NCBI RefSeq assembly: GCF_001426705.1
Contig: NZ_LMFC01000001.1
Location: 1,641,355-1,705,354, forward strand
From: Cellulomonas sp. Root485
GTDB taxonomy: Bacteria > Actinomycetota > Actinomycetes > Actinomycetales > Cellulomonadaceae
DNA length: 64,000 bases
Direction of reading: 5' to 3'
In this document: in pieces, positions 39,765-49,788 of the stretch
Layout: each line of letters begins with the position of its first letter
How positions within the stretch are numbered: position 1 is the first letter of the stretch
Notes under the pieces: model-generated
The model's input: only the letters and a program-made list of their open reading frames with translations
What the model was told of the DNA's origin: nothing
The model's database searches: none
Made by a program: the position numbers and the translations under genes

Positions 39765-40373
39765 CTACAGGCCAGCGAGCAGGTTCTGCATCTCCGTGAT
39801 CTCCGCCGTCTGGGCGTCGATGATCGTGCCCGCCAGGGCCAGGGCGTCGGGGTTCAGGCCCTCGGCCTTCTCCTGCTCGGACATCTCGATGGCGCCGCGG
39901 TGGTGCGCCACCATGCGCTCGAGGAAGGACCGGTCGAACTCGGTGCCGTCGAGGCCGTCGAGCTCGTCCATCACCTCGGACTGGCTCATGCCGTCCATGT
40001 CCATCCCGCCCATGTCCATGTGGTCCATGCCCATGTCGTGTGACGTCTCCTCGTTCCAGTCGTTGAGCCAACCGGTCATGAGGTCGATCTCAGGCCCTTG
40101 AGCGGCCTGGATGCGCTGTGCGAGGGCCTTGACCTCGGGGCTCGCGGCTCGGGCGATCGCGACGTCGGCCATCTCGATGGCGCCTTGGTGGTGGATGACC
40201 ATCAGCTGCGCGAACTGGGTGTCGGCGTCGTTGTGGGTGGCCGCGGTGCTCTGCGTGCCTTGGTCCGAGCCAGGCGTCTGCCCTGCGTCGTTGCTGCTGG
40301 AGCACGCGGCCAGGGTGATCGCCAGGGCGACCGCGGCGGCGGAGGCAGTCAGGCGGCGACGCATCTCGTTCAT
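39765..40373 (-). CDS. DUF305 lipoprotein, metal-island extracellular protein
   Basis: A 202-residue lipoprotein with lipobox LAAC (Cys24). Two copies of the DUF305 motif are present: VIHHQGAIEMADVAI and VAHHRGAIEMSEQE. Between them is a Met/His/Asp-rich stretch (about 110-130, including HDMGMDHMDMGGMDMDGM), a likely extracytoplasmic copper-binding site. DUF305 is ferritin-like in fold and commonly sits beside copper ATPases. AAGGAG precedes the ATG at 40373. It is the first gene of a pair with the SHOCT protein. Confidence 0.88.
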   Translation of the reverse strand: MNEMRRRLTASAAAVALAITLAACSSSNDAGQTPGSDQGTQSTAATHNDADTQFAQLMVIHHQGAIEMADVAIARAASPEVKALAQRIQAAQGPEIDLMTGWLNDWNEETSHDMGMDHMDMGGMDMDGMSQSEVMDELDGLDGTEFDRSFLERMVAHHRGAIEMSEQEKAEGLNPDALALAGTIIDAQTAEITEMQNLLAGL

Positions 40374-40454
40374 CAGTCTGGTCTCCTTGCGGTCGGTGAG
40401 TGCACAGGCCCTGCCCACCTTGCGCCGTGACACCCGCATGGCCGGTCGCCGTCG

Positions 40455-40469
40455 CATCAAGGTTTGATG
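40455..40469. promoter_or_regulatory. Inverted repeat upstream of the DUF305-SHOCT operon
   Basis: CATCAA and TTGATG are separated by three bases, about 82 bases upstream of the DUF305 start. The TTGATGAAG core recurs in the direct repeats at 42884-42962, hinting that the same response regulator acts at both places. Confidence 0.4.
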
Positions 40470-40503: not shown

Positions 40504-42783
40504 TCACCGCCCTGCGCTCCCGCCGAGTGATTCCCTCGCGGTCGTGGGCGTGAGCTCGTGGGTTCGCTGACCTGCGGGGAGGGTCAGCCGCTTGAGCAGC
40601 AGGGCGTTGGCGGCGACGATCACCGAGGACCCGGACATCGTCAGGGCGGCGATCTCGGGGCTCAGCGACACGCCGAGCGACGGGTAGAGCACGCCTGCCG
40701 CGATCGGGAGTGCGAGCGCGTTGTAGCCGATCGCCCAGCCCAGGTTCTGCCGCATCTTGCGCAACGTGCCCTTTCCGATCCGCTGTGCGATCGCCACGTC
40801 GAGCGGGTCGGACCGCATCAGGACGACATCGGCGGTCTCGATGGCGACGTCCGTGCCGGCGCCGATCGCGATGCCGAGGTCGGCCGTGGCCAGGGCGGGG
40901 GCGTCGTTGACGCCGTCTCCCACCATGGCGACCGTGCGTCCATCGGCCTGCAGACGGGCGACCTGGTCGGCCTTGTCGCCCGGCAGCACCTCCGCCACGA
41001 CGGTGTCGATGCCGAGCTGGCCGGCGATGCGGTGGGCGGTCGCCTCGTTGTCGCCGGTCAGCATGACGACCTCGAGACCGGCCTCGTGCAAGGAGGCGAC
41101 GGCTGCGGTGGCGGTCTCGCGCACGGCGTCAGCCAGGGCGATGACGCCCGCCAGGCGACCGTCGACCGCGACGAGCACCGCGGTCCTGCCCGACTGCGCG
41201 AACTCGTCGCGGCGGGCGGACAGGTCCCCGAGCGCGACGCCCTCGGCGGCCATCAGCCGCTGGTTGCCGACCAGGACTCGGTGACCGTCCACCGTGGCGC
41301 CGGCACCGTGGCCAGGAACGTTGCGGAAGTCGAGGGCGACGAGCACGGCAGCGCCGAGCGTGGTGGCGTGCGCGACGACGGCACGCGCCAGCGGGTGCTC
41401 GGACTCGCGTTCCACGGCGGCCGCCAGCGCGAGGACCTCCAGCTCGGGCAGGTGATCGACGACCACATCCGTCACCTCCGGCTCGCCCCTGGTGAGGGTG
41501 CCGGTCTTGTCCATCACCACGGTGTCGATGCGTGCCGACGTCTCCAGCGCGGTGGCGTTCTTGAACAGGACGCCGCGGCGTGCGCCCAAGCCGGTGCCGA
41601 CCATGATGGCGGTCGGTGTGGCCAGGCCCAGGGCGTCGGGGCAGGTGATCACGACCACGGTGATGGCGAACAGCATCGCGGTCGGCACGCTGGCCCCGGC
41701 CAGGGTCCAGGCGAGGAACGTGACGGTGCCCCCGACGAGAGCGACGAGAACGAGCCAGAACGCCGCATGGTCGGCGAGCCGCTGACCTGGCGCCTTGGAG
41801 TTCTGTGCCTCCTGGACCAGGGCGACGATCTGGGCCAGGGCGGTGTCCGAACCAACCTTGGCGGCCTGTACCCGCAGCGTCCCGGTGGTGTTGATCGACG
41901 CACCGATGACCTGCGACCCGGGAGCCTTCGGCACCGGCAGGCTCTCTCCGGTGACCATCGACTCGTCGACCTCGGACTCGCCCGCCTCGACGACCGCGTC
42001 GACGGGAACCTTCGCTCCGGGCCGCACCAGCAGCAGATCGCCGACGAGGACCTGACCCGTCGGGACGTCGACCTCGGCTCCGTCCCGCAGGACGACCGCC
42101 GTGTCGGGGGCGAGCTCGAGCAGTGTGCGGACGGCGTCGTTCGCGCCGCCCCGGGCCCGCATCTCGACCCAGTGGCCGAGCAGGACGAAGGTCGTCAGGA
42201 CCGTGGCGGCCTCGTAGAAGACCTCACCGCCGCCGGTGAGGGTGATCCACAGGCTGTACAGCCACCCGGTGCCCACACCGACCGCGACCAGCACCATCAT
42301 GTCCAGCGTCCGGGCCCGCAGCGCCCGGTACGCGCCGTCGAAGAAGATCCACGCCGAGTAGAAGATCACCGGCAGCGACAGCAGCAGGCTGAGCACGTCG
42401 TCGCGCAGGCCGAACGGGGTGCCGGCCGAGAATCCGAGCAGCTCGCGTCCGATCGGGGACCACAGGACGATCGGGACCGACAGGAGCAGCGCGACCAGGA
42501 AGCGGTTGCGCATGTCGCGGACCATGTCCGCCATCGAGCCGCCGCCGTGGTGACCTCCGTGCCCCATCGCGTCCTGCGCCGACATCGTTTCGGTCGCATC
42601 GTCGCCACCGTGGTGCGCGTGCACGGACCCGGCATCCTGGTTCGACGCCGCGAGGTCAGCGCTCGAAGCGGACATCCGGCTGCCGGCCGGATCGTCTATC
42701 GGCTCGCAGACGTGCTGCGGGACGGAGCGGCCTTCGCAGCTCTGGAGGCCCCCCACTTCCAGGACTGTCGTCTCGACCTTCAT
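40504..42783 (-). CDS. P1B-type heavy-metal ATPase with a CPD motif (CopB-like)
   Basis: A 759-residue metal-efflux ATPase, probably for copper. After a divergent N-terminus comes a His/Met-rich segment (51-88, with HAHHGG and GHGGHHGGG) like that of CopB. Key motifs are TGES (actuator), Cys381-Pro382-Asp383 where canonical Cu pumps have CPC or CPH, phosphorylated Asp425 in DKTGTLT, SEHPLA (461-466) and GDGVNDAPAL. IGYNALALP and TMSGSS in the last two helices agree with Cu-type members. No intact HMA domain precedes helix 1. ATG 42783 follows GGGAG; a CsoR-type operator lies about 40 bases upstream. Confidence 0.88.
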   Translation of the reverse strand: MKVETTVLEVGGLQSCEGRSVPQHVCEPIDDPAGSRMSASSADLAASNQDAGSVHAHHGGDDATETMSAQDAMGHGGHHGGGSMADMVRDMRNRFLVALLLSVPIVLWSPIGRELLGFSAGTPFGLRDDVLSLLLSLPVIFYSAWIFFDGAYRALRARTLDMMVLVAVGVGTGWLYSLWITLTGGGEVFYEAATVLTTFVLLGHWVEMRARGGANDAVRTLLELAPDTAVVLRDGAEVDVPTGQVLVGDLLLVRPGAKVPVDAVVEAGESEVDESMVTGESLPVPKAPGSQVIGASINTTGTLRVQAAKVGSDTALAQIVALVQEAQNSKAPGQRLADHAAFWLVLVALVGGTVTFLAWTLAGASVPTAMLFAITVVVITCPDALGLATPTAIMVGTGLGARRGVLFKNATALETSARIDTVVMDKTGTLTRGEPEVTDVVVDHLPELEVLALAAAVERESEHPLARAVVAHATTLGAAVLVALDFRNVPGHGAGATVDGHRVLVGNQRLMAAEGVALGDLSARRDEFAQSGRTAVLVAVDGRLAGVIALADAVRETATAAVASLHEAGLEVVMLTGDNEATAHRIAGQLGIDTVVAEVLPGDKADQVARLQADGRTVAMVGDGVNDAPALATADLGIAIGAGTDVAIETADVVLMRSDPLDVAIAQRIGKGTLRKMRQNLGWAIGYNALALPIAAGVLYPSLGVSLSPEIAALTMSGSSVIVAANALLLKRLTLPAGQRTHELTPTTARESLGGSAGR

Positions 42784-42821
42784 GACCCCGCTCCCACGTC
42801 TCGTCGGACAACCTGTTTCGC

Positions 42822-42838
42822 ATACCCCATGGGGGTAT
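42822..42838. promoter_or_regulatory. CsoR/CstR-type operator upstream of the ATPase gene
   Basis: ATACCCC and GGGGTAT form perfect 7-bp arms around three bases. This matches the operator type bound by CsoR-family repressors. It lies 39 bases before the ATPase start. The same arms occur at 44989-45004. The likely repressor is encoded at 47272-47544. Confidence 0.78.
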
Positions 42839-42883
42839 CCGTTCGGTACAACGCGGGTGCCCATACGGAACTTCCCAGCCGGC

Positions 42884-42962
42884 GATGAAGCCTTGATGAA
42901 GCCGACGTGGTCGAGCGAAGCTGTCCTGCCGTCGCCGGGTTTGATGAGCGTTCGATGAAGCC
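42884..42962. promoter_or_regulatory. Two pairs of 11-bp-spaced direct repeats, probable response-regulator sites
   Basis: GATGAAGCC occurs at 42884 and again at 42895; TTGATGAGC (42941) is followed by a GATGAAGCC at 42954. Within each pair the repeats are exactly 11 bases apart, the helical spacing used by OmpR/PhoB-family dimers. The element sits between the divergent ATPase gene and the response regulator gene at 43013, suggesting autoregulation and metal control of both. Confidence 0.6.
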
Positions 42963-43012
42963 ATGACGCGAGCGGTCGGTGGTCCGCCACCTGAGGGTGC
43001 CGACCGGACACA

Positions 43013-43738
43013 ATGGCCGACATGGCCCCGCAGCTGCCGTCACGCCGGCGTGCTCTCGTCATCGACGACGAGGAGGCGCTCGCCACCCTGATCGCCGACT
43101 ACCTGGAACGCGACGGTTTCGAGGTCCACCTGGCCCACGACGGACTCGAAGGTCTCGAGGCGGCGCGGTCGATCGACCCCGACGTCGTGGTGCTGGACCT
43201 CGGACTTCCCGGGATCGATGGCGTGGAAGTGTGCCGGCAGCTGCGCTCGTTCTCCGACTGCTACGTGATCATGCTGACCGCCCGCAGCGAGGAGGTCGAC
43301 ACCTTGATCGGTCTGTCGGTCGGCGCCGACGACTACATGACCAAGCCGTTCAGCCCGCGCGAGCTGCTGGCGCGGATCTCCGCCCTGCTCCGCCGACCGC
43401 GGCGCACTGCTGACGGCTCAACGGCAGCGAGTGAGCCACTGCGCATCGGTTCGCTCTCGATCGACCTGCCGGGCCGAGAGGTCCTCCTCGACGGCTACCC
43501 GGTGCCGCTCACGCGGACGGAGTTCGACGTGCTCGCGGCGTTGGCCGCCAGCCCGCAGCTCGTCTTCAGCCGACGCGTCCTGATCGAGGCCGTGTGGGGC
43601 GACAACTGGGTAGGTGACCCGCACCTGGTGGACGTCCACGTGCTCCACGTGCGGCAGAAGCTCGGCGACACGGCCGACGCGCAGCGCTACGTCCGCACCA
43701 TCCGGGGCGTCGGCTACCGCATCGGCACCGGCGGATGA
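43013..43738 (+). CDS. OmpR-family response regulator of the metal island
   Basis: A 241-residue regulator. The receiver has ALVIDDEEALA, phosphoacceptor Asp62 (VVVLDLGLPG), Thr in MLTARSEEVD and Lys in YMTKPFSPREL; the winged helix covers about 140-238 (LTRTEFDVLAALAASP, VDVHVLHVRQKLGD, VRTIRGVGYRIG). It resembles CopR/CusR-like metal regulators only at family level; the copper link is from context. A second ATG at 43022 is possible; neither has a strong ribosome-binding site. Its stop overlaps the kinase start (ATGA). Confidence 0.92.
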   Translation: MADMAPQLPSRRRALVIDDEEALATLIADYLERDGFEVHLAHDGLEGLEAARSIDPDVVVLDLGLPGIDGVEVCRQLRSFSDCYVIMLTARSEEVDTLIGLSVGADDYMTKPFSPRELLARISALLRRPRRTADGSTAASEPLRIGSLSIDLPGREVLLDGYPVPLTRTEFDVLAALAASPQLVFSRRVLIEAVWGDNWVGDPHLVDVHVLHVRQKLGDTADAQRYVRTIRGVGYRIGTGG

Positions 43739-44853
43739 CGTCACCGGGATGGGGCCTGGCCGGCAGGCTCCTGGCGGCCATGACCGTGGTCGTCCTGGCC
43801 GGCGGGTTCACCGCGTGGATCGTCGCCGCGGCGGTGGGTCCTGTCGTCTTCCATCAGCACATGGGCGAGGTCGGCATGGGGGCCGGCCCGGCAGCCGTCA
43901 TGCACGCCGAAGAGGCGTTCCAGTCGGCCAGCGCTCTGACGCTGACGATCGCCCTGGTCACGTCAGTGGCCGCGTCGCTCGCCGTGAGCGTGTTCCTGAC
44001 CAGGCGCATCGCCTCGTCCCTCGGCACCCTGACCTCGGCCGCGACCCGTATCGCGGCCGGCCATCTCGACTCGCGCGTGGACCGCCCGTCGCTCGGCGTC
44101 GAGTTCGACCAGCTCGCCGACGCATTCAACGACATGGCTCGCCAGCTCGAGGAGAGCGAAGCCCTCAGACAGAGGCTGCTCGCGGACGTGGCGCACGAGG
44201 TCCGCACTCCGGTCGCGGTCATCGGCGCGTACCTGGAGGGACTGGAGGACGGGGTGACCACCCTGACACCGCAGACCGTGAGCGTGCTGCGAGACCAGGG
44301 CGCGCGACTGGCACGCCTCGCCACCGACCTCGCGGCGGTGACACGCGCGGAACAGGGCGCTCGCAGCCTGGTCCTCGCGCCGACGTCGCCGCACGCGCTC
44401 CTGTCCGCAGCGCTCGCCGCTGCCCGCAGCGGCTACGACTCCGCCGGTGTCGAGCTGGAGCTCGACGTGGACCCAGGACTGCCGACCGTCGCCGCCGACG
44501 CCGATCGGATGAGCCAGGTGCTGGGCAACCTGCTCGACAACGCCCGGCGACACACACCCCGCGGCGGATCGGTGCGCCTCAGCGCACACCTGACCGAGGC
44601 TGGTCTCGTCCGCTTGACGGTCGCCGACACCGGCGAAGGCATCGACCCTGATCAGCTCGGCCTCATCTTCGAGCGCTTCTACCGAGTCGACACGGCGCGG
44701 GACCGCACCAGTGGCGGTTCCGGAATCGGCCTGGCGATCGTCCGCGCGATCGTCCACGCCCACGGCGGCACCGTCACGGCCACCAGTGCCGGACGCGACC
44801 GCGGATCACGGTTCGACATCGACCTGATGCCCGCCCCCGGCCAGCCGGTCTGA
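43735..44853 (+). CDS. Sensor histidine kinase of the metal island
   Basis: A 372-residue kinase. Two membrane helices (about 10-36 and 64-88) flank a short outer loop of about 27 residues holding His40, His42, Met43, Met48, Met56 and His57, a plausible Cu(I)/Cu(II) site. A HAMP domain (about 88-142) leads to phosphoacceptor His154 (LLADVAHEVRTPVAVI), then VLGNLLDNARRHTP (N box), VADTGEGIDPDQLGLIFERF and SGGSGIGLAIVRAI. The four-base overlap with the regulator indicates a cognate pair. Confidence 0.92.
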   Translation: MTSPGWGLAGRLLAAMTVVVLAGGFTAWIVAAAVGPVVFHQHMGEVGMGAGPAAVMHAEEAFQSASALTLTIALVTSVAASLAVSVFLTRRIASSLGTLTSAATRIAAGHLDSRVDRPSLGVEFDQLADAFNDMARQLEESEALRQRLLADVAHEVRTPVAVIGAYLEGLEDGVTTLTPQTVSVLRDQGARLARLATDLAAVTRAEQGARSLVLAPTSPHALLSAALAAARSGYDSAGVELELDVDPGLPTVAADADRMSQVLGNLLDNARRHTPRGGSVRLSAHLTEAGLVRLTVADTGEGIDPDQLGLIFERFYRVDTARDRTSGGSGIGLAIVRAIVHAHGGTVTATSAGRDRGSRFDIDLMPAPGQPV

Positions 44854-44988
44854 ACGTCGAGCTCCCCCGGGGCACCCGACGCCTGGTCCGCTGTTCGGGC
44901 GAGACTTCGTGCTTGCCCACGATGCGCCGATCACTCAGGTGACCGCCCTGCTCGACACCGCTGTGCGCGCCGCGGATGCTCGTCCGGG

Positions 44989-45013
44989 ATACCCCCTGGG
45001 GTATATTGGATCC
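44989..45013 (+). promoter_or_regulatory. CsoR/CstR-type operator over the -10 box of a leaderless promoter
   Basis: ATACCCC-CT-GGGGTAT (44989-45004) is a near copy of the ATPase-gene operator. Its right arm overlaps TATATT (45002-45007), a good -10 hexamer whose end is six bases from the ATG at 45014. There is no Shine-Dalgarno sequence, so the transcript probably begins at or next to the start codon. A bound repressor would block RNA polymerase directly. Confidence 0.75.
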
Positions 45014-46723
45014 ATGAACCACAGAGACCTTCGCCCGGACCGCGACCCTCGCAGGATCGTCATCGTCGGCGGTGTCGCCGGCGGCATGAGTGCGGCGGCT
45101 CGCGCGCGGCGCCTCGACGAGCGGGCCGAGATCGTCGTGCTGGAGCAGTCGGACTACGTCTCGTTCGCCAACTGCGGGCTGCCGTACCACCTGTCCGGGG
45201 AGATCGAGCGGCGTGACGACCTGCTCCTGCACACGCCGTCCTCGCTCGGTGCCGCGCTCGCGCTCGACGTGCGGACCGGCCACCGCGTGACCGCGATCGA
45301 CCGGGCCGCACGGACGGTCTCCGTCACGGCCGGCGCCGACCGCTACGACCTCGCGTACGACGCCCTGCTGCTCTCCCCCGGTGCGGTCGCCGTCCGACCC
45401 CCGATCGACGGGCTGGACCACCCGGCCGTGCACGCGCTGCGGACCATCCCTGACCTCGACGCCGTCGACGACCACGTCCGTCGCCTCGTCGCCGAGCGGG
45501 CCGAGCGCCCGCGCGCAGTGGTCGTCGGCGCCGGGTTCATCGGCCTGGAGGCGGTCGAGGCCCTCGTCGCCCGCGGCCTCGAGGTCGACGTGGTCGAGCT
45601 GGCCGACCACGTCCTGCCACCCCTGGACGCCGAGCTGGCACCGCTGCTGGCCGACGAGCTGACGGCACACGACGTCGGCCTGTACCTCGGCGTCTCGGCA
45701 CAGGCCCTCCACCCAGGTTCCGACTCCGCGCTGAGCGTCGTCCTGTCCGACGGCACGCAGCTGAGCGCCGACCTGGTGCTCGTCAACGTCGGGGTGCGCC
45801 CGGCGAGCGAACTGGCACGCGACGCCGGGCTCGAGCTCGGTCGCCACGGTGCCATCCGCGTCGACGAGGACCAGCGGACCTCCGACCCGCACATCTGGGC
45901 GGTCGGCGATGCCGTCGAAGTCGTCCACGCCGTCACCGGGGCGGTCGGCCCCGTGCCGCTCGCCGGCCCTGCCAACCGCCAGGGGCGGCGAGCCGCCGAC
46001 TCGATGCTCGGACGGCGCACCACCCCGCAGGCAGCCGTCCTGGGCACAGCGATCGTTCGGCTGTTCGGGCTCACCGCGGCAGTCACCGGCGCGAGCCAGC
46101 TGACGCTCGCTCGCGCGGGTATCGCGCACGAGGCGGTCCGGATCCACCCCGGCCACCACGCCGGCTACTTCCCGGGCGCTGAACAGATCCACCTCGTGGC
46201 CTCGTTCGCCCCCGACGGGCGGCTCCTCGGCGCCCAGGCCGTCGGTCGCGACGGTGTCGACAAGCGCATCGACGTGCTGGCCACGGCTCTGCGCGCCGGG
46301 ATGACGGCGGACGACCTCGCCGAGCTGGAGCTGGCCTACGCGCCGCCCTACGGCTCGGCCAAGGACCCCGTGAACATGCTGGGCTTCGTCGCGCAGAACG
46401 TCCTCGACGGCACCACGCCGCAGTGGCACGCGAGTGAGCTCGACGACGTCCTGGCCGACACCCTCGTGCTCGACGTCCGCTCGCCGGGCGAGTTCGACCG
46501 GGGACACCTCAAGGGCGCGCTGCACATCCCGCACACCGAGCTGCGCGGCCGTCTCGACGAGGTGCACGCCGCCGCGGCCGGTCGCCCGGTCAGCGTGCAC
46601 TGCGCCTCCGGGGTCCGCTCGCACATCGCCACCCGCGTCCTGCTCGCCGCAGGCATCGACGCCCGCAACCTGTCCGGCGGGTGGCTGACCCTCACCGCCG
46701 TCCGCCCCGAACTCATCGCCTGA
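45014..46723 (+). CDS. CoA-disulfide reductase fused to a rhodanese domain
   Basis: A 569-residue flavoenzyme of the pyridine-nucleotide disulfide reductase superfamily. It has the FAD loop GGVAGGMSAAARARR, active-site Cys54 in SFANCGLPYHLSGE (single Cys, as in CoADR), NAD(P)H loop VVVGAGFIGLEAVEALV and the AAPPYGSAKDP-like dimerisation segment. Residues 470-569 are a rhodanese domain with Cys530 in HCASGVRSHIA. CoADR-rhodanese fusions reduce CoA persulfide or polysulfide. The N-terminal sulfide-relevant context (CstR-type operator, second rhodanese) supports sulfane-sulfur detoxification. Translation appears leaderless. Confidence 0.92.
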   Translation: MNHRDLRPDRDPRRIVIVGGVAGGMSAAARARRLDERAEIVVLEQSDYVSFANCGLPYHLSGEIERRDDLLLHTPSSLGAALALDVRTGHRVTAIDRAARTVSVTAGADRYDLAYDALLLSPGAVAVRPPIDGLDHPAVHALRTIPDLDAVDDHVRRLVAERAERPRAVVVGAGFIGLEAVEALVARGLEVDVVELADHVLPPLDAELAPLLADELTAHDVGLYLGVSAQALHPGSDSALSVVLSDGTQLSADLVLVNVGVRPASELARDAGLELGRHGAIRVDEDQRTSDPHIWAVGDAVEVVHAVTGAVGPVPLAGPANRQGRRAADSMLGRRTTPQAAVLGTAIVRLFGLTAAVTGASQLTLARAGIAHEAVRIHPGHHAGYFPGAEQIHLVASFAPDGRLLGAQAVGRDGVDKRIDVLATALRAGMTADDLAELELAYAPPYGSAKDPVNMLGFVAQNVLDGTTPQWHASELDDVLADTLVLDVRSPGEFDRGHLKGALHIPHTELRGRLDEVHAAAAGRPVSVHCASGVRSHIATRVLLAAGIDARNLSGGWLTLTAVRPELIA

Positions 46724-46740
46724 CCCCCAAGGAGAAGCCC

Positions 46741-47103
46741 ATGTCCCTCAGCAGCACCCTGCGCCGACTCTTCGGTGGCACAGACAGCGGCAACACCCTG
46801 CGGCCCACGATCGACGCCGTCCGAGCGCTCGAGCTCGTCCGCGACGGGGCAGCCCTGCTCGACGTGCGCGAACGGTCCGAGTGGAACACCGGTCACGCGC
46901 CCCAGGCCGTGCACGTCCCGCTCGGCGAGATCGAGAAGGCCCCCCGCCGCCTGACGCAGGGCACGCCTGTCGTGGTCATGTGCGCCTCGGGCATGCGCTC
47001 GCGCAGCGCCGCCAAGCACCTGCGCACGCTCGGCTTCGACGCCACGAGCCTGTCCGGCGGCATCGGCGCCTGGCAGTCCGCCGGCGGCGCCGTCCGCCGC
47101 TGA
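46741..47103 (+). CDS. Single-domain rhodanese sulfurtransferase
   Basis: A 120-residue protein. LLDVRERSEWNTGHAPQAVH opens the rhodanese fold, and Cys81 in the active-site loop CASGMRS is the persulfide carrier. A 20-residue Ser/Gly-rich leader has no signal-peptide features. It begins 17 bases after the CoADR gene, with AAGGAG upstream, and is in the same operon, probably exchanging sulfane sulfur with it. Confidence 0.9.
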   Translation: MSLSSTLRRLFGGTDSGNTLRPTIDAVRALELVRDGAALLDVRERSEWNTGHAPQAVHVPLGEIEKAPRRLTQGTPVVVMCASGMRSRSAAKHLRTLGFDATSLSGGIGAWQSAGGAVRR

Positions 47104-47128
47104 CCCACCCCCGACGAAGGAGAACCCC

Positions 47129-47245
47129 ATGTGCTCGCCCGTCCGTTGCTCCCGCTGTGGCAAGGTCACCTGGTCCGGCTGCGGCATGCACGTCGACGCC
47201 GTCATGGCCCAGGTACCCCGCACCCAGCAGTGCACCTGCCGCTGA
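47129..47245 (+). CDS. 38-residue cysteine-rich miniprotein
   Basis: A very short gene beginning MCSPVRCSRCGKVTWSGCGM and ending QQCTCR, with Cys at 2, 7, 10, 18, 35 and 37. GAAGGAG lies six bases before the ATG, and the flanking gaps are 25 and 26 bases, so it fits tightly in the operon. CxxC plus CxC suggest a zinc, copper or persulfide-reactive knuckle. I recall similar short proteins beside rhodanese genes in other actinomycetes, but know no assigned function. It is easily missed by gene callers. Confidence 0.75.
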   Translation: MCSPVRCSRCGKVTWSGCGMHVDAVMAQVPRTQQCTCR

Positions 47246-47271
47246 CCGCCCCGCAACCAGAGAGGTCCCCG

Positions 47272-47544
47272 ATGGAGCTCGACAAGGACGAGATGTCCAA
47301 GGTGTCCAACCGGCTCAAGCGCGCCCAGGGCCAGCTCGCCGCCGTCGTGCGCATGCTCGACGAGGGTCGGGACTGCGAGGACATCGTCACGCAGCTCTCG
47401 GCCGTGTCCCGCGCACTCGACCGCGCAGGCTTCGCGATCATCGCCTCCGGCATGCGGCAGTGCCTCACCCAGCCCGAGCAGGACGGCGAACCCGCCTCCC
47501 TCGACGTGCAGAAGCTCGAGAAGCTGTTCCTCTCGCTCGCCTGA
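47272..47544 (+). CDS. CsoR/CstR-family repressor, ligands resemble CstR
   Basis: A 90-residue all-helical repressor (DUF156). KVSNRLKRAQGQLAAVVRML and DIVTQLSAVSRALDRAGFAI are the family core. In copper-sensing CsoR the ligand set is Cys-His-Cys. Here the aligned positions are Cys35, Gly60 and Cys64, so the copper His is missing. CstR, the persulfide sensor, likewise keeps two Cys without the His. This and the sulfurtransferase neighbours favour reactive-sulfur sensing. It should bind the ATACCCC/GGGGTAT sites at 42822 and 44989. Last gene of the CoADR operon. Confidence 0.88.
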   Translation: MELDKDEMSKVSNRLKRAQGQLAAVVRMLDEGRDCEDIVTQLSAVSRALDRAGFAIIASGMRQCLTQPEQDGEPASLDVQKLEKLFLSLA

Positions 47545-47574
47545 GGTCGGACCGGGGTCAGGCTCGCACCTGCT

Positions 47575-47590
47575 CGCGCCTGTCGGCGCG
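47575..47590. terminator. Short hairpin between the convergent repressor gene and arsA
   Basis: CGCGCC and GGCGCG pair over four bases in the 49-bp gap between two convergent stop codons. The stem is short, so this is a weak call. Confidence 0.4.
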
Positions 47591-47593
47591 TTC

Positions 47594-49393
47594 TCAGACC
47601 GCGACCTCAGCAGGTGCGTCACGCATGCCGAGCGCACGGAGAGCACCGACACCGACAGGCTCGGATGCCAGGAGCGGGACGATGGCGCACCGTGCGGCGC
47701 CCTCGGCTCGGACGCGGGCGATCTCACCGAGCTCGGCGGCGGCGCGCCGCCGCAGCAGCGGATCGGTGGTCGACGCTGCCGCGACAGTGTTGTTGACCAC
47801 CCAGGCCCAGGGGTGGATGCCCGCGCGGCGGAGGTCATCGGTGAGCTCCTCGGCCTCGAGGACGGGCGTGGCCTCGGGCAGGGTGACGATGAGGACCTTG
47901 GTGTAGCCGGGGTCCTGCAGGCGCATCATCGGGGTGGTGAACGTCGCAGCGGTCGTTCCCATCTGGCGCACGATGTCCCGGTGGTAGGACCCGGTGGCGT
48001 CGAGGAGCAGCAGGGTGTGGCCGGTCGGGGCGGTGTCGATCACGACGAATCGACGTCGGGCGTCGTTGACGACCTTCGAGAAGGCCTGGAACACAGCGAT
48101 CTCCTCGGTGCACGGGGACCGTAGGTCCTCCTCGAGGCTGGCGCGTCCGGCGGGATCCAAGGAGGCGCCCCGGCGGGCCAGGACCGACTGGCGGTAGCGC
48201 TCGGTCTCGACGGCAGGGTCGATCCGTGAGACCTCGAGGTTCGGCACCGACCCTGCAAGGGTCTGCCCGAGGTGGGCCGCGGGGTCGGTGGTGGTCAGAT
48301 GGACGGAGAGTCCACGGTCGGCGAGCGCGACGGCGATCGCGGCGGCGACAGTGGTCTTGCCGACGCCCCCCTTGCCCATCGTCATGATCAGGCCGTGCTC
48401 CTGGGTGGCGAGCTCGTCGATCAGCGCACCCAGCGAGTCGACTCCCGTCGGGACGGGCCCCCGCGGTTCGGGGACCTGGATGGCCGACGGGTCGTCCGGC
48501 GTGAAGAGCCGGCCGAGCGCGTCGAGGCCCACCATGTTCTCCCCCTTGAGGGTGAGCACGTCGCGGGGCAGGGCGGCGAGCTCGGGGGGCAGGGCCGCGA
48601 GGACCGCCTGCTCGCGCTCGTGGACGGCTGTGGCGAGCGCGTCCCCGGAGACGGGAAAGGGCATGACCGCGTTGACCACCAGGTGCTGGTGACGTAGCCC
48701 GAGGGCGGCAAGCTCGTCATGGGTGCGCTGGACCTCCGCGACCGCCGCCTGGTGAGCCCTGGTCACCAGGACGAGGCGGGTGCGGGCGGGGTCGGCGAGG
48801 GCGGCGACGGCCGCGGCGTAGACCGTGCGCTGCCGGTCGAGGCCGGCCAGGGGTCCGAGGCAGGAGGCGTCGCCCTTGCCCTCGTCGAGGAAGTCGGTCC
48901 AGGACGACGGCAGCTGCAGGAGCCGGATGGTGTGCCCGGTCGGCGCGGTGTCGAACACGACGTGATCGAACTCCGCAGCCGTGTCCTGGGTGAGCAGTGC
49001 AGTGAACTCGTTGAACGAGGCGATCTCGGTGGTGCACGCCCCGGCCAGCTGCTCCTCGATGAGCGCGACCTCGGCGGCGGGCAGGACGCCACGGACGGGG
49101 CCGACGATCCGCTCTCGGTAGGCGGCCGTGGCCTGCTCCGGGTTGATCTCCAGCGCCCAGAGTCCGATCACCGCGGGGACGCGTGTGATGGTGTTGCCGA
49201 TGCTCAGCCCGAACACCTGGCCCACGTTGGACGCGGGGTCGGTGCTGACCAGCAGGACGGACCTGCCCGTGCGGGCGAGCGCGATCGCGGCGGCGCAGGC
49301 GATGGAGGTCTTGCCCACCCCGCCCTTGCCGGTCAGGAACAGGAACCTGGGGGCGCCGACCAGGAAGCGCGGCAGGGCCGGATCGGTCAGCAC
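47594..49393 (-). CDS. arsA: Arsenite-activated ATPase ArsA
   Basis: A 599-residue tandem ATPase of the ArsA/GET3 family. Both halves have the deviant Walker A (GKGGVGKT at 22-29 and 340-347), the signal-transduction motif DTAPTGHT (148-155, 453-460), and DPASN/DPAAH loops. Cys120, Cys178 and Cys428 lie in CTTEIASF, SCLGPL and CTEEIAVF, corresponding to the three As(III)/Sb(III) ligands of E. coli ArsA. It normally energises the ArsB pump; no arsB or acr3 gene is in this window. The GTG at 49393 overlaps the arsD stop by seven bases. Confidence 0.93.
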   Translation of the reverse strand: MLTDPALPRFLVGAPRFLFLTGKGGVGKTSIACAAAIALARTGRSVLLVSTDPASNVGQVFGLSIGNTITRVPAVIGLWALEINPEQATAAYRERIVGPVRGVLPAAEVALIEEQLAGACTTEIASFNEFTALLTQDTAAEFDHVVFDTAPTGHTIRLLQLPSSWTDFLDEGKGDASCLGPLAGLDRQRTVYAAAVAALADPARTRLVLVTRAHQAAVAEVQRTHDELAALGLRHQHLVVNAVMPFPVSGDALATAVHEREQAVLAALPPELAALPRDVLTLKGENMVGLDALGRLFTPDDPSAIQVPEPRGPVPTGVDSLGALIDELATQEHGLIMTMGKGGVGKTTVAAAIAVALADRGLSVHLTTTDPAAHLGQTLAGSVPNLEVSRIDPAVETERYRQSVLARRGASLDPAGRASLEEDLRSPCTEEIAVFQAFSKVVNDARRRFVVIDTAPTGHTLLLLDATGSYHRDIVRQMGTTAATFTTPMMRLQDPGYTKVLIVTLPEATPVLEAEELTDDLRRAGIHPWAWVVNNTVAAASTTDPLLRRRAAAELGEIARVRAEGAARCAIVPLLASEPVGVGALRALGMRDAPAEVAV

Positions 49394-49767
49394 GACCCAC
49401 CTCCGCCGCAGCACCCACCGGTGGACCCTGCCATCGGCAGCACGGCGCGGGCCGGCGTGGCCGCGCCGACCGTGGCCCAGCGCGCCAGCTCTGCACGGCT
49501 GGGATACCGGCCCGCCATGGCGACGGTCCCGTCGACCAGGACGAGCGGAAGGCCCTCTGATCCGGACACCTGCAGGAAGTCCAGCACGGCAGGGGTGCCG
49601 GCGAACTCCCCTGGCTCGCTGGCCAGGTTGAACCGCGTCACCGCGACACCCTGGTCCCGCAGCCAGTCGAGGTCGGCGGAGAACGTCACCAGCTCCTGCG
49701 GGACGTCCGGGCCGCACACCCCGGTGCTGCAGCACAGTGCCGGCTCGAAGACTGCGATGGTGCTCAT
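49387..49767 (-). CDS. arsD: Arsenite metallochaperone ArsD
   Basis: A 126-residue thioredoxin-like chaperone that hands As(III) to ArsA. Cys12, Cys13 and Cys18 (FEPALCCSTGVCG) are the essential triad, and LPLVLVDGTVAMAGRYPSR is the conserved C-terminal strand-turn. The tail ends GGCCGGGGSC, with a further Cys pair and single Cys as in E. coli ArsD. It is the first gene of an arsDA operon, with a nested palindrome 22 bases upstream. Confidence 0.93.
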   Translation of the reverse strand: MSTIAVFEPALCCSTGVCGPDVPQELVTFSADLDWLRDQGVAVTRFNLASEPGEFAGTPAVLDFLQVSGSEGLPLVLVDGTVAMAGRYPSRAELARWATVGAATPARAVLPMAGSTGGCCGGGGSC

Positions 49768-49788
49768 CCGCCACGACCTCCCGCTATC

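Follow-up and report, generated by a model that had tools for sequence, protein, structure and literature searches.

A probable CstR-controlled reactive-sulfur operon in Cellulomonas sp. Root485, its operator spacing and its small-protein partner

Gene content and organization of the locus

The 64,000-nucleotide stretch of Cellulomonas sp. Root485 analyzed here (contig NZ_LMFC01000001.1, positions 1,641,355 to 1,705,354; hereafter the window) contains four same-strand genes at 45014-47544, separated by intergenic gaps of 17, 25 and 26 bp, that very probably make up a reactive-sulfur operon controlled by a CstR-like repressor (Table 1). A previous annotation made from the letters alone (the sequence-only reading) had called them a CoADR-rhodanese, a second rhodanese, a 38-residue Cys-rich protein and a CsoR-family repressor, and the translations and Pfam matches confirmed these calls. 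The repressor belongs to Trns_repr_metal (PF02583), with 82.4 bits for a cut-off of 22.8. Shine-Dalgarno-like stretches were recognized by eye ahead of the last three genes, and a kinase gene is located upstream, 160 bp away from the operon. An Rfam search of positions 44800-47700 at gathering scores and a scan of 42500-47900 for sigma-70 promoters and terminators gave no match.

Table 1. Location of the operon, its operator and the neighboring copper-type genes in the window
Feature	Position	Strand	Details
Operator ATACCCCCTGGGGTAT (N4 type)	44989-45004	.	Right half overlaps TATATT at 45002-45007
CoADR-rhodanese fusion, probable CoA-persulfide reductase (CoAPR/Npsr-like)	45014-46723	+	569 aa; Cys54 and Cys530; Pfam Pyr_redox_2 and Rhodanese; PDB matches
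Single-domain rhodanese	46741-47103	+	120 aa; single Cys81 in CASGMRS loop; Pfam Rhodanese
Cys-rich protein, unnamed family	47129-47245	+	38 aa; Cys 2, 7, 10, 18, 35, 37; MCx4Cx2Cx7Cx2H...C
CstR-like repressor	47272-47544	+	90 aa; Cys35 and Cys64 its only Cys; residue 60 is Gly
Operator ATACCCCATGGGGGTAT (N5 type)	42822-42838	.	38 bp upstream of likely P1B ATPase start 42783 (-); probably copper CsoR regulon
P1B ATPase	40504-42783	-	CPD in place of CPC
DUF305/CopM-family protein	39765-40460	-	110 bits, cut-off 90; downstream of the ATPase, same strand

In front of the operon there is a palindrome, ATACCCCCTGGGGTAT, absent from the sequence-only reading, which ends 9 bp before the ATG of the CoADR-rhodanese. 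It is of the type that we call N4, after the four bases between its half sites, and is the sole ATACCC-N4-GGGTAT in the 4.65-Mb genome (a control pattern gave 0). Two further exact TACCC-N4-GGGTA exist (C1:1087542 and C3:441935), neither of which fits the 16-mer with the outer A/T, and the control for this wider pattern gave 2. With one mismatch allowed, the N4 count in the genome (68) hardly exceeded that of the control (60), and the analysis was therefore restricted to exact matches. The palindrome is similarly near the ATG in eight Cellulomonas loci, chosen for their close site, and for this reason they are likely to have a leaderless transcript, with a putative -10 box inside the operator. 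At other loci, e.g., L067-L073, the palindrome is found ca. 80-115 bp ahead of the aligned start.

The first gene product has the architecture of a CoA-persulfide reductase, i.e., a CoADR domain followed by a C-terminal rhodanese, with a Cys in each (SFANC(54)GLPYH and C(530)ASGVRS). Its best PDB match was 3nta (509 bits), aligned over residues 13-560, with Cys54 and Cys530 falling on Cys of that structure. The entry named coenzyme A-persulfide reductase, 8a56, was fifth in the PDB list (484 bits), with both domains aligned. We take 3nta and 4ocg to be the Shewanella persulfide reductase Npsr. In Enterococcus faecalis, CstR governs two sulfurtransferases as well as CoAPR, an enzyme that reduces CoASSH and thereby yields the thiol and H2S (PMC9405070). 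Given this activity and the matches to 8a56 and 3nta, our best guess is that the window operon clears CoA persulfide.

Affiliation of the repressor

The family alignment places residue 60 of the repressor at the position of the CsoR His, which all 29 copper CsoRs have, as do the structures 4adz, 4m1p, 2hh7, 5fmn and 6ahx. In contrast, all 109 CstR-like relatives have Gly there, without a single His, and all of them keep both Cys35 and Cys64. With Gly60, the repressor does not have the Cys-His-Cys ligand set of a copper CsoR, and its Glu2, Leu3, Gly60 and Cys64 differ from the ligand residues of RcnR (His3/His60/His64) and FrmR (Pro2/Glu64). The conserved Cys of Staphylococcus aureus CstR are C31 and C60. 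For E. faecalis CstR, they are C31 and C62 (PMC9405070). Neither does the operon have the TACX9GTA (N5) operator of copper CsoR; its operator is N4.

In a phmmer search against the PDB, 7mq1/7mq3 were at the top (52 bits, E 6.7e-13), above the copper CsoRs, and the FrmR structures were the weakest matches of the family (5lbm, 24 bits; 5lcy, 21 bits). The molecule of 7mq1 is named csoR in the PDB, and we assume it to be the CstR of Streptococcus pneumoniae. A tree of 146 rows gathered the 110 CstR-like rows into one group (96/93). Next to this group stood 7mq1 (99/91), the only characterized CstR of the tree (on that assumption), and separate from them were the 30 copper CsoR rows and the five structures with His. 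The AlphaFold model of the repressor, a monomer with a predicted local distance difference test (pLDDT) of 73, was not used. The residues (Cys35, Cys64 and Gly60), the absence of His at the ligand position and the assignment to CstR rather than to copper CsoR, all put forward in the sequence-only reading, are thus upheld by the translation, the alignment and the tree, and also by the operator type, the neighboring genes and the existence of a separate copper-type CsoR operon (below).

Some of the related loci deserve mention. In Streptomyces albogriseolus (L132), the CstR-like gene is located (by eye) amid thioredoxin, sulfite-exporter-like, DUF302-like and metallo-beta-lactamase-rhodanese genes. 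A contig labeled Vibrio cholerae 35D (L126) has an Arthrobacter-like CstR locus, placed among Arthrobacter-type rows of the tree, and is probably contaminating or mislabeled. Another, labeled Sphaerisporangium cinnabarinum (L071), falls among the Cellulosimicrobium rows, and its label is doubtful.

Operator spacing across genomes

We scanned sets of loci for TACCC-Nj-GGGTA with j from 0 to 9, using four permuted palindromes as controls (in the largest set, these gave 0 to 2.5 matches per spacing on average). The close relatives were the best 80 of 473 relatives of the repressor, while the class-level CstR-like, phylum PF02583 and copper CsoR sets comprise the best-scoring places only; the sets overlap in part and hold near-copies (e.g., L098 and L100), so the counts are not independent events. 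In the 80 close CstR-like loci, 146 of 148 matches had j = 4 (one had j = 5 and one j = 0), and N4 was found in 78 of the loci; at 29 further class-level CstR-like loci, all 31 matches were N4 (22 loci). The relatives of the copper-type CsoR of the genome gave N5 in 24 of 24 matches (20 of 29 loci), and the 29 best PF02583 loci of the phylum gave N5 in 22 of 23, the other being N0 (N5 in 21 loci). Among the loci of at least 10 kb, the CstR-like ones (n = 71) had N4 in 70, N5 in none, a rhodanese (at least 40 bits) in 68 and a P1B ATPase (>150 bits, within ca. 6 kb) in only one, versus 0, 16, 1 and 14, respectively, of the 20 copper loci.

Genome wide, with no selection of loci, we found 196 exact ATACCC-N4-GGGTAT 16-mers, distributed over 65 of 197 genomes of the class, versus 2 matches to the control pattern. 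Genes scored as CstR-like (at least 70 bits, with a gap in the scores between 72 and 46 bits) were found at 107 places in 89 genomes, and 60 of these genomes had the 16-mer versus 5 of the 108 without such a gene (Fisher p 2e-22, a value that overstates independence because the genomes are related and some sites are tRNA ends). The N5 17-mer is less telling, being present in 109 of 197 genomes, tRNA ends included. The N5 at C1:781208 and the N4 sites of L323 and L327 were set aside because they overlap tRNA-Gln genes. The 5' end of tRNA-Gln(CTG) mimics half of the CsoR/CstR palindrome and can mislead operator scans (L003:7217, L323:2009 and L327:2008).

Each half of this rule is already in print. 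The CsoR of Streptomyces lividans has a TACX9GTA operator, i.e., N5 (PMC3902906), and the ScCsoR of Streptomyces coelicolor has ATACCn6GGTAT, with the 16-bp spacing of N4 (PMC7533328). What we draw here is the contrast, of which our searches, covering open-licence papers, gave no statement, and which may be in print elsewhere. Such a sequence rule, N4 or N5, could allow the persulfide and copper regulons of actinobacteria to be told from each other ahead of experiments. It could also be the reason why two paralogous repressors whose operators are almost the same are kept separate within one cell.

Genes next to other N4 sites

Twenty stretches around N4 16-mers, from 11 genomes, were picked by place only, away from the regulator gene (L341, at ca. 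2 kb from it, and L332, at ca. 10 kb, are exceptions in distance, and L338 holds two sites). As the adjoining gene we took, on either strand, the longest frame with its start no more than 160 bp from the site. By Pfam, it coded for a rhodanese in L324, L326, L335 and L339, a CoADR-rhodanese in L341, a Pyr_redox_2 oxidoreductase that we take as SQR-like in L328, L334, L340 and L342, a DUF302 protein in L331 and L333, a thioredoxin in L332 and a peroxiredoxin in L336; L325 was recognized by eye as a thioredoxin from its WCGPC motif. L328 also has a divergent metallo-beta-lactamase-rhodanese gene. We did not count as sulfane-sulfur type the DsbD_TM gene of L330, the ArsR-type regulator of L329, the CLC channel of L338, or the unassigned gene of L337, and the sites of L323 and L327 are tRNA-Gln ends. 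Hence, a sulfane-sulfur-type gene is next to the site in 14 of 20 stretches (13 by Pfam and 1 by eye), or 14 of 18 without the tRNA ends. At some sites there is also a gene facing from the opposite strand, e.g., that of a methyltransferase in L324 and of an alanine dehydrogenase/transhydrogenase in L332. The control of sulfurtransferase genes, characteristic of CstR, is suggested here by operators, and the content of the window operon, its own N4 site, the rhodanese in 68 of 71 loci and these other sites all point to it.

The 38-residue Cys-rich protein

The third gene of the operon codes for a protein with no family in Pfam or NCBIfam at E values up to 10. Three longer relatives were also compared with Pfam, and two of them gave only sub-threshold DUF702, zf-CCCH_Mcm10 and Mut7-C. 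In 48 chosen members, including that of the window, Met1, Cys2, Cys7, Cys10, Lys12, Trp15, Gly17, Cys18, Gly19, His21, Val25 and Cys35 are invariant, with positions 12, 15 and 25 varying in a wider set. A database search with a 16-row alignment retrieved 3595 proteins at E <=0.001 among 3621 candidates. Within the 120 relatives listed, there was no precomputed Pfam domain, and names were hypothetical or uncharacterized, save for stray phage terminase and transposase labels on P0217 and P0220. No publication on the family was found in our literature search.

This family is present at no fewer than 95 places in at least 74 of the 197 genomes; up to 34 first-look candidates were scored per genome, which makes these counts lower bounds. 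It co-occurs with CstR: at least 53 genomes have both, at least 21 only the small protein, 36 only the CstR-like gene and 87 neither (Fisher p 6e-9). Of 39 places that share a contig with a CstR-like gene, 34 are within 6 kb of it (that of the window included), and the next is 190 kb away. In the genomes with CstR, places not near it (i.e., not found within 6 kb, a set that includes other contigs of fragmented assemblies, so that some may truly lie near) had an exact N4 within 200 bp upstream in 26 of 38 cases and an exact N5 in none. In the genomes without a detected CstR-like gene, N4 preceded 2 of 23 places, and N5 another 2 of 23, three of these four in a single genome (G304); the difference for N4, 26/38 versus 2/23, is significant (Fisher p 4e-6). 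L243 and L226, with N4 ca. 460 bp upstream, were counted as misses. The genes near CstR had N4 within 200 bp in 8 of 34 cases and N3 in one, a subset that says little since many of them lie in or beside the gene cluster of the regulator. From the 26 of 38 versus 2 of 23, the small-protein gene looks like a member of the CstR regulon in its own right. It cannot depend on CstR everywhere, given the 21 genomes that have it without a detected CstR-like gene.

Modeled by AlphaFold without metal, the protein gave a beta-hairpin and a helix (mean pLDDT 80, predicted template modeling score 0.38). Together with the Cx2C...Cx2H pattern, this suggests a zinc knuckle that would leave Cys2 and Cys35 available as possible sulfur carriers, and our leading guess is a zinc-stabilized thiol/persulfide acceptor. 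As a whole, we propose tentatively, and with considerable doubt, that the family has a core effector role in the persulfide response of actinobacteria, as a small zinc-knuckle protein whose Cys2 (N-terminal after removal of Met) and Cys35 would take up, hold or hand over sulfane sulfur, and that N4 versus N5 spacing keeps the persulfide and copper regulons of the paralogous repressors apart. Since its promoters place this unnamed family in the persulfide response, its function is directly testable.

The neighboring ATPase and the copper regulon

The sequence-only reading had set the operon inside a metal island, next to a copper-type ATPase. This neighbor does not argue for a common response to metal. 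The P1B ATPase has its own palindrome, ATACCCCATGGGGGTAT, one base longer than the operator of the operon, and the adjacency of both is found in 1 of 71 loci, as given above. A metal regulon common to the operon and the ATPase is thus rejected in view of the operator type (N4 versus N5) and of the lack of conservation of the adjacency. The genome has a second PF02583 gene at C3:531191, with the Cys-His-Cys set. Downstream of it are genes recognized by eye as copZ-like and copA-like (CPC motif), and this operon is preceded by ATACCCCCTAGGGGTAT, also N5. We compared the window ATPase with 29 other loci, scoring up to 5 first-look candidates per genome, so that their number is a lower bound. Sixteen of them (L290-L305) share the CPD motif, with N5 in four, N3 in one and N4 in none (over ca. 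700 bp upstream of the aligned start); the other 13, with CPC or CPH, had N5 in five and N4 in none. Overall, there was N5 in 9, N3 in one, N4 in 0 and no such site in 19. Because of its own N5 site and of these 9 of 29 loci with N5 versus 0 of 29 with N4, the window ATPase likely, but not certainly, belongs to the copper regulon and is controlled in trans by the CsoR of C3.

Proposed mechanism and alternatives

In the resting state, by analogy with the family, the repressor would sit on the N4 operator, overlapping the promoter, and the four genes would be off. A rise in persulfide or polysulfide would lead to the sulfuration of Cys35 (and perhaps Cys64), the repressor would leave the DNA, and the operon, including the gene of the repressor itself, would be expressed. 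The rhodanese would then move sulfane sulfur, the CoADR-rhodanese would use NAD(P)H to reduce CoA persulfide, with CoA and sulfide as the products, and the 38-residue protein would act as a regular member of the same actinobacterial regulon. Copper would be handled separately, by the csoR-copZ-copA-like operon and probably the neighboring ATPase, both with N5. That reactive sulfur derepresses the operon we infer from family membership. A tri- or tetrasulfide between Cys35 and Cys64 would be only one option for the sensing chemistry; in ScCsoR, only Cys37 is reported as persulfidated, with no cross-link (PMC7533328).

It seems to us highly improbable that the repressor is instead a sensor of copper or another metal, binding Cu(I) through Cys35 and Cys64 and regulating a metal island made up of the operon and possibly the ATPase. 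It is in the same Pfam family as CsoR, a heavy-metal ATPase and a CopM-family gene adjoin the operon, related palindromes are found at both promoters and a structure with His tops the profile search, but position 60 lacks His in all 109 relatives, the operator is N4 and not N5, the genome has a separate csoR-copZ-copA-like operon with N5 and the adjacency of the ATPase is not conserved. A general sensor of thiol stress or aldehydes (FrmR-like or oxidant responsive), in which disulfide or electrophile chemistry at Cys35 would be the main signal and reactive sulfur one of several inducers, we consider unlikely. Most genes at the N4 sites code for rhodanese, CoADR or sulfide-oxidoreductase-like proteins, even if peroxiredoxin and thioredoxin genes appear at some of them, and two conserved Cys would suit any thiol oxidant. 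Thermus TTHA1953, the nearest to CstR according to its authors, binds DNA less when oxidized and did not respond to NaHS (PMC10318464). On the other hand, the PDB matches within the family are weakest for the FrmR structures, and no formaldehyde dehydrogenase appeared among the proteins scanned at the operon and the N4 sites, where no search was aimed at one.

The assignment of the operon to a CstR-type response to reactive sulfur has several observations to contend with. A profile search put 6ahx first (57 bits), ahead of 7mq3/7mq1 (51 bits), and the top NCBIfam matches, all far below the cut-offs, were RicR (42/175), FrmR (35/133) and RcnR (28/138 bits). A long branch leads from the CstR-like group to 7mq1 and the other structures, in a tree that rests on few columns. 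As CstR-type proteins may respond to other thiol stress, there may be further inducers besides sulfur. The exact N4 16-mer is missing in 29 of the 89 genomes with a CstR-like gene, one N5 match is located within a CstR-like locus (L107), and five genomes without such a gene (G163, G222, G261, G284 and G304) carry N4 16-mers. Two of these, G284 (5 sites) and G304 (1), fragmented assemblies, have no detectable PF02583 gene at all, which we cannot explain except by assembly gaps. Finally, the CsoR His position is occupied by Asn in 7mq1 and by Gly in all 109 CstR-like relatives, so that Gly60 seems to mark the actinobacterial CstR-like lineage. Separately, G304 also has five N5 17-mers.

Comparison with known systems

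The operon very probably serves a persulfide response under CstR and is arranged as in E. faecalis, with the addition of a small protein of no named family and a clear operator code. As in the cst-like system of that species (CstR, RhdA, RhdB and CoAPR; PMC9405070), a di-Cys CsoR-family repressor, rhodanese and CoADR-rhodanese (CoAPR) are under one regulator. The window operon differs by its one single-domain rhodanese (two sulfurtransferases in E. faecalis), the additional 38-residue Cys-rich gene, the actinobacterial host and perhaps Gly at the CsoR His position. With the ScCsoR circuit of S. coelicolor (SCO0618, SCO0620 and neighbors), it shares an actinobacterial di-Cys repressor, a 16-bp operator and a rhodanese, whereas the four genes named for that circuit include those of a persulfide dioxygenase and a sulfite transporter, without one for a CoADR (PMC7533328). 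The S. lividans CsoR (4adz) is similar in family and in its TAC/GTA G-tract palindrome, but has His at the ligand position, responds to copper and binds TACX9GTA (N5), while the window operator has X8 (N4) (PMC3902906). By sequence, the two-domain architecture of the first gene product is that of EfCoAPR (8a56) and of CoADR-Rhd proteins (3nta, 4ocg and 3icr), among them presumably Npsr. The CstR/CoAPR/rhodanese arrangement was already known; what is added here is the small-protein partner, recurring with the N4 site in many related bacteria.

Flanking genes

The DUF305/CopM-family gene may be part of the ATPase operon. The window ATPase is without ca. 55 residues of an N-terminal heavy-metal-associated-type region, although the frame is open across the gap; this region is visible in 14 of the 16 orthologs with CPD, the exceptions being L301 and L303. 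At the other side, an arsenic module borders the operon and converges on it (47594-49774, minus strand), comprising ArsD (49387-49767, by Pfam) and an ArsA-like twin ATPase recognized by eye.

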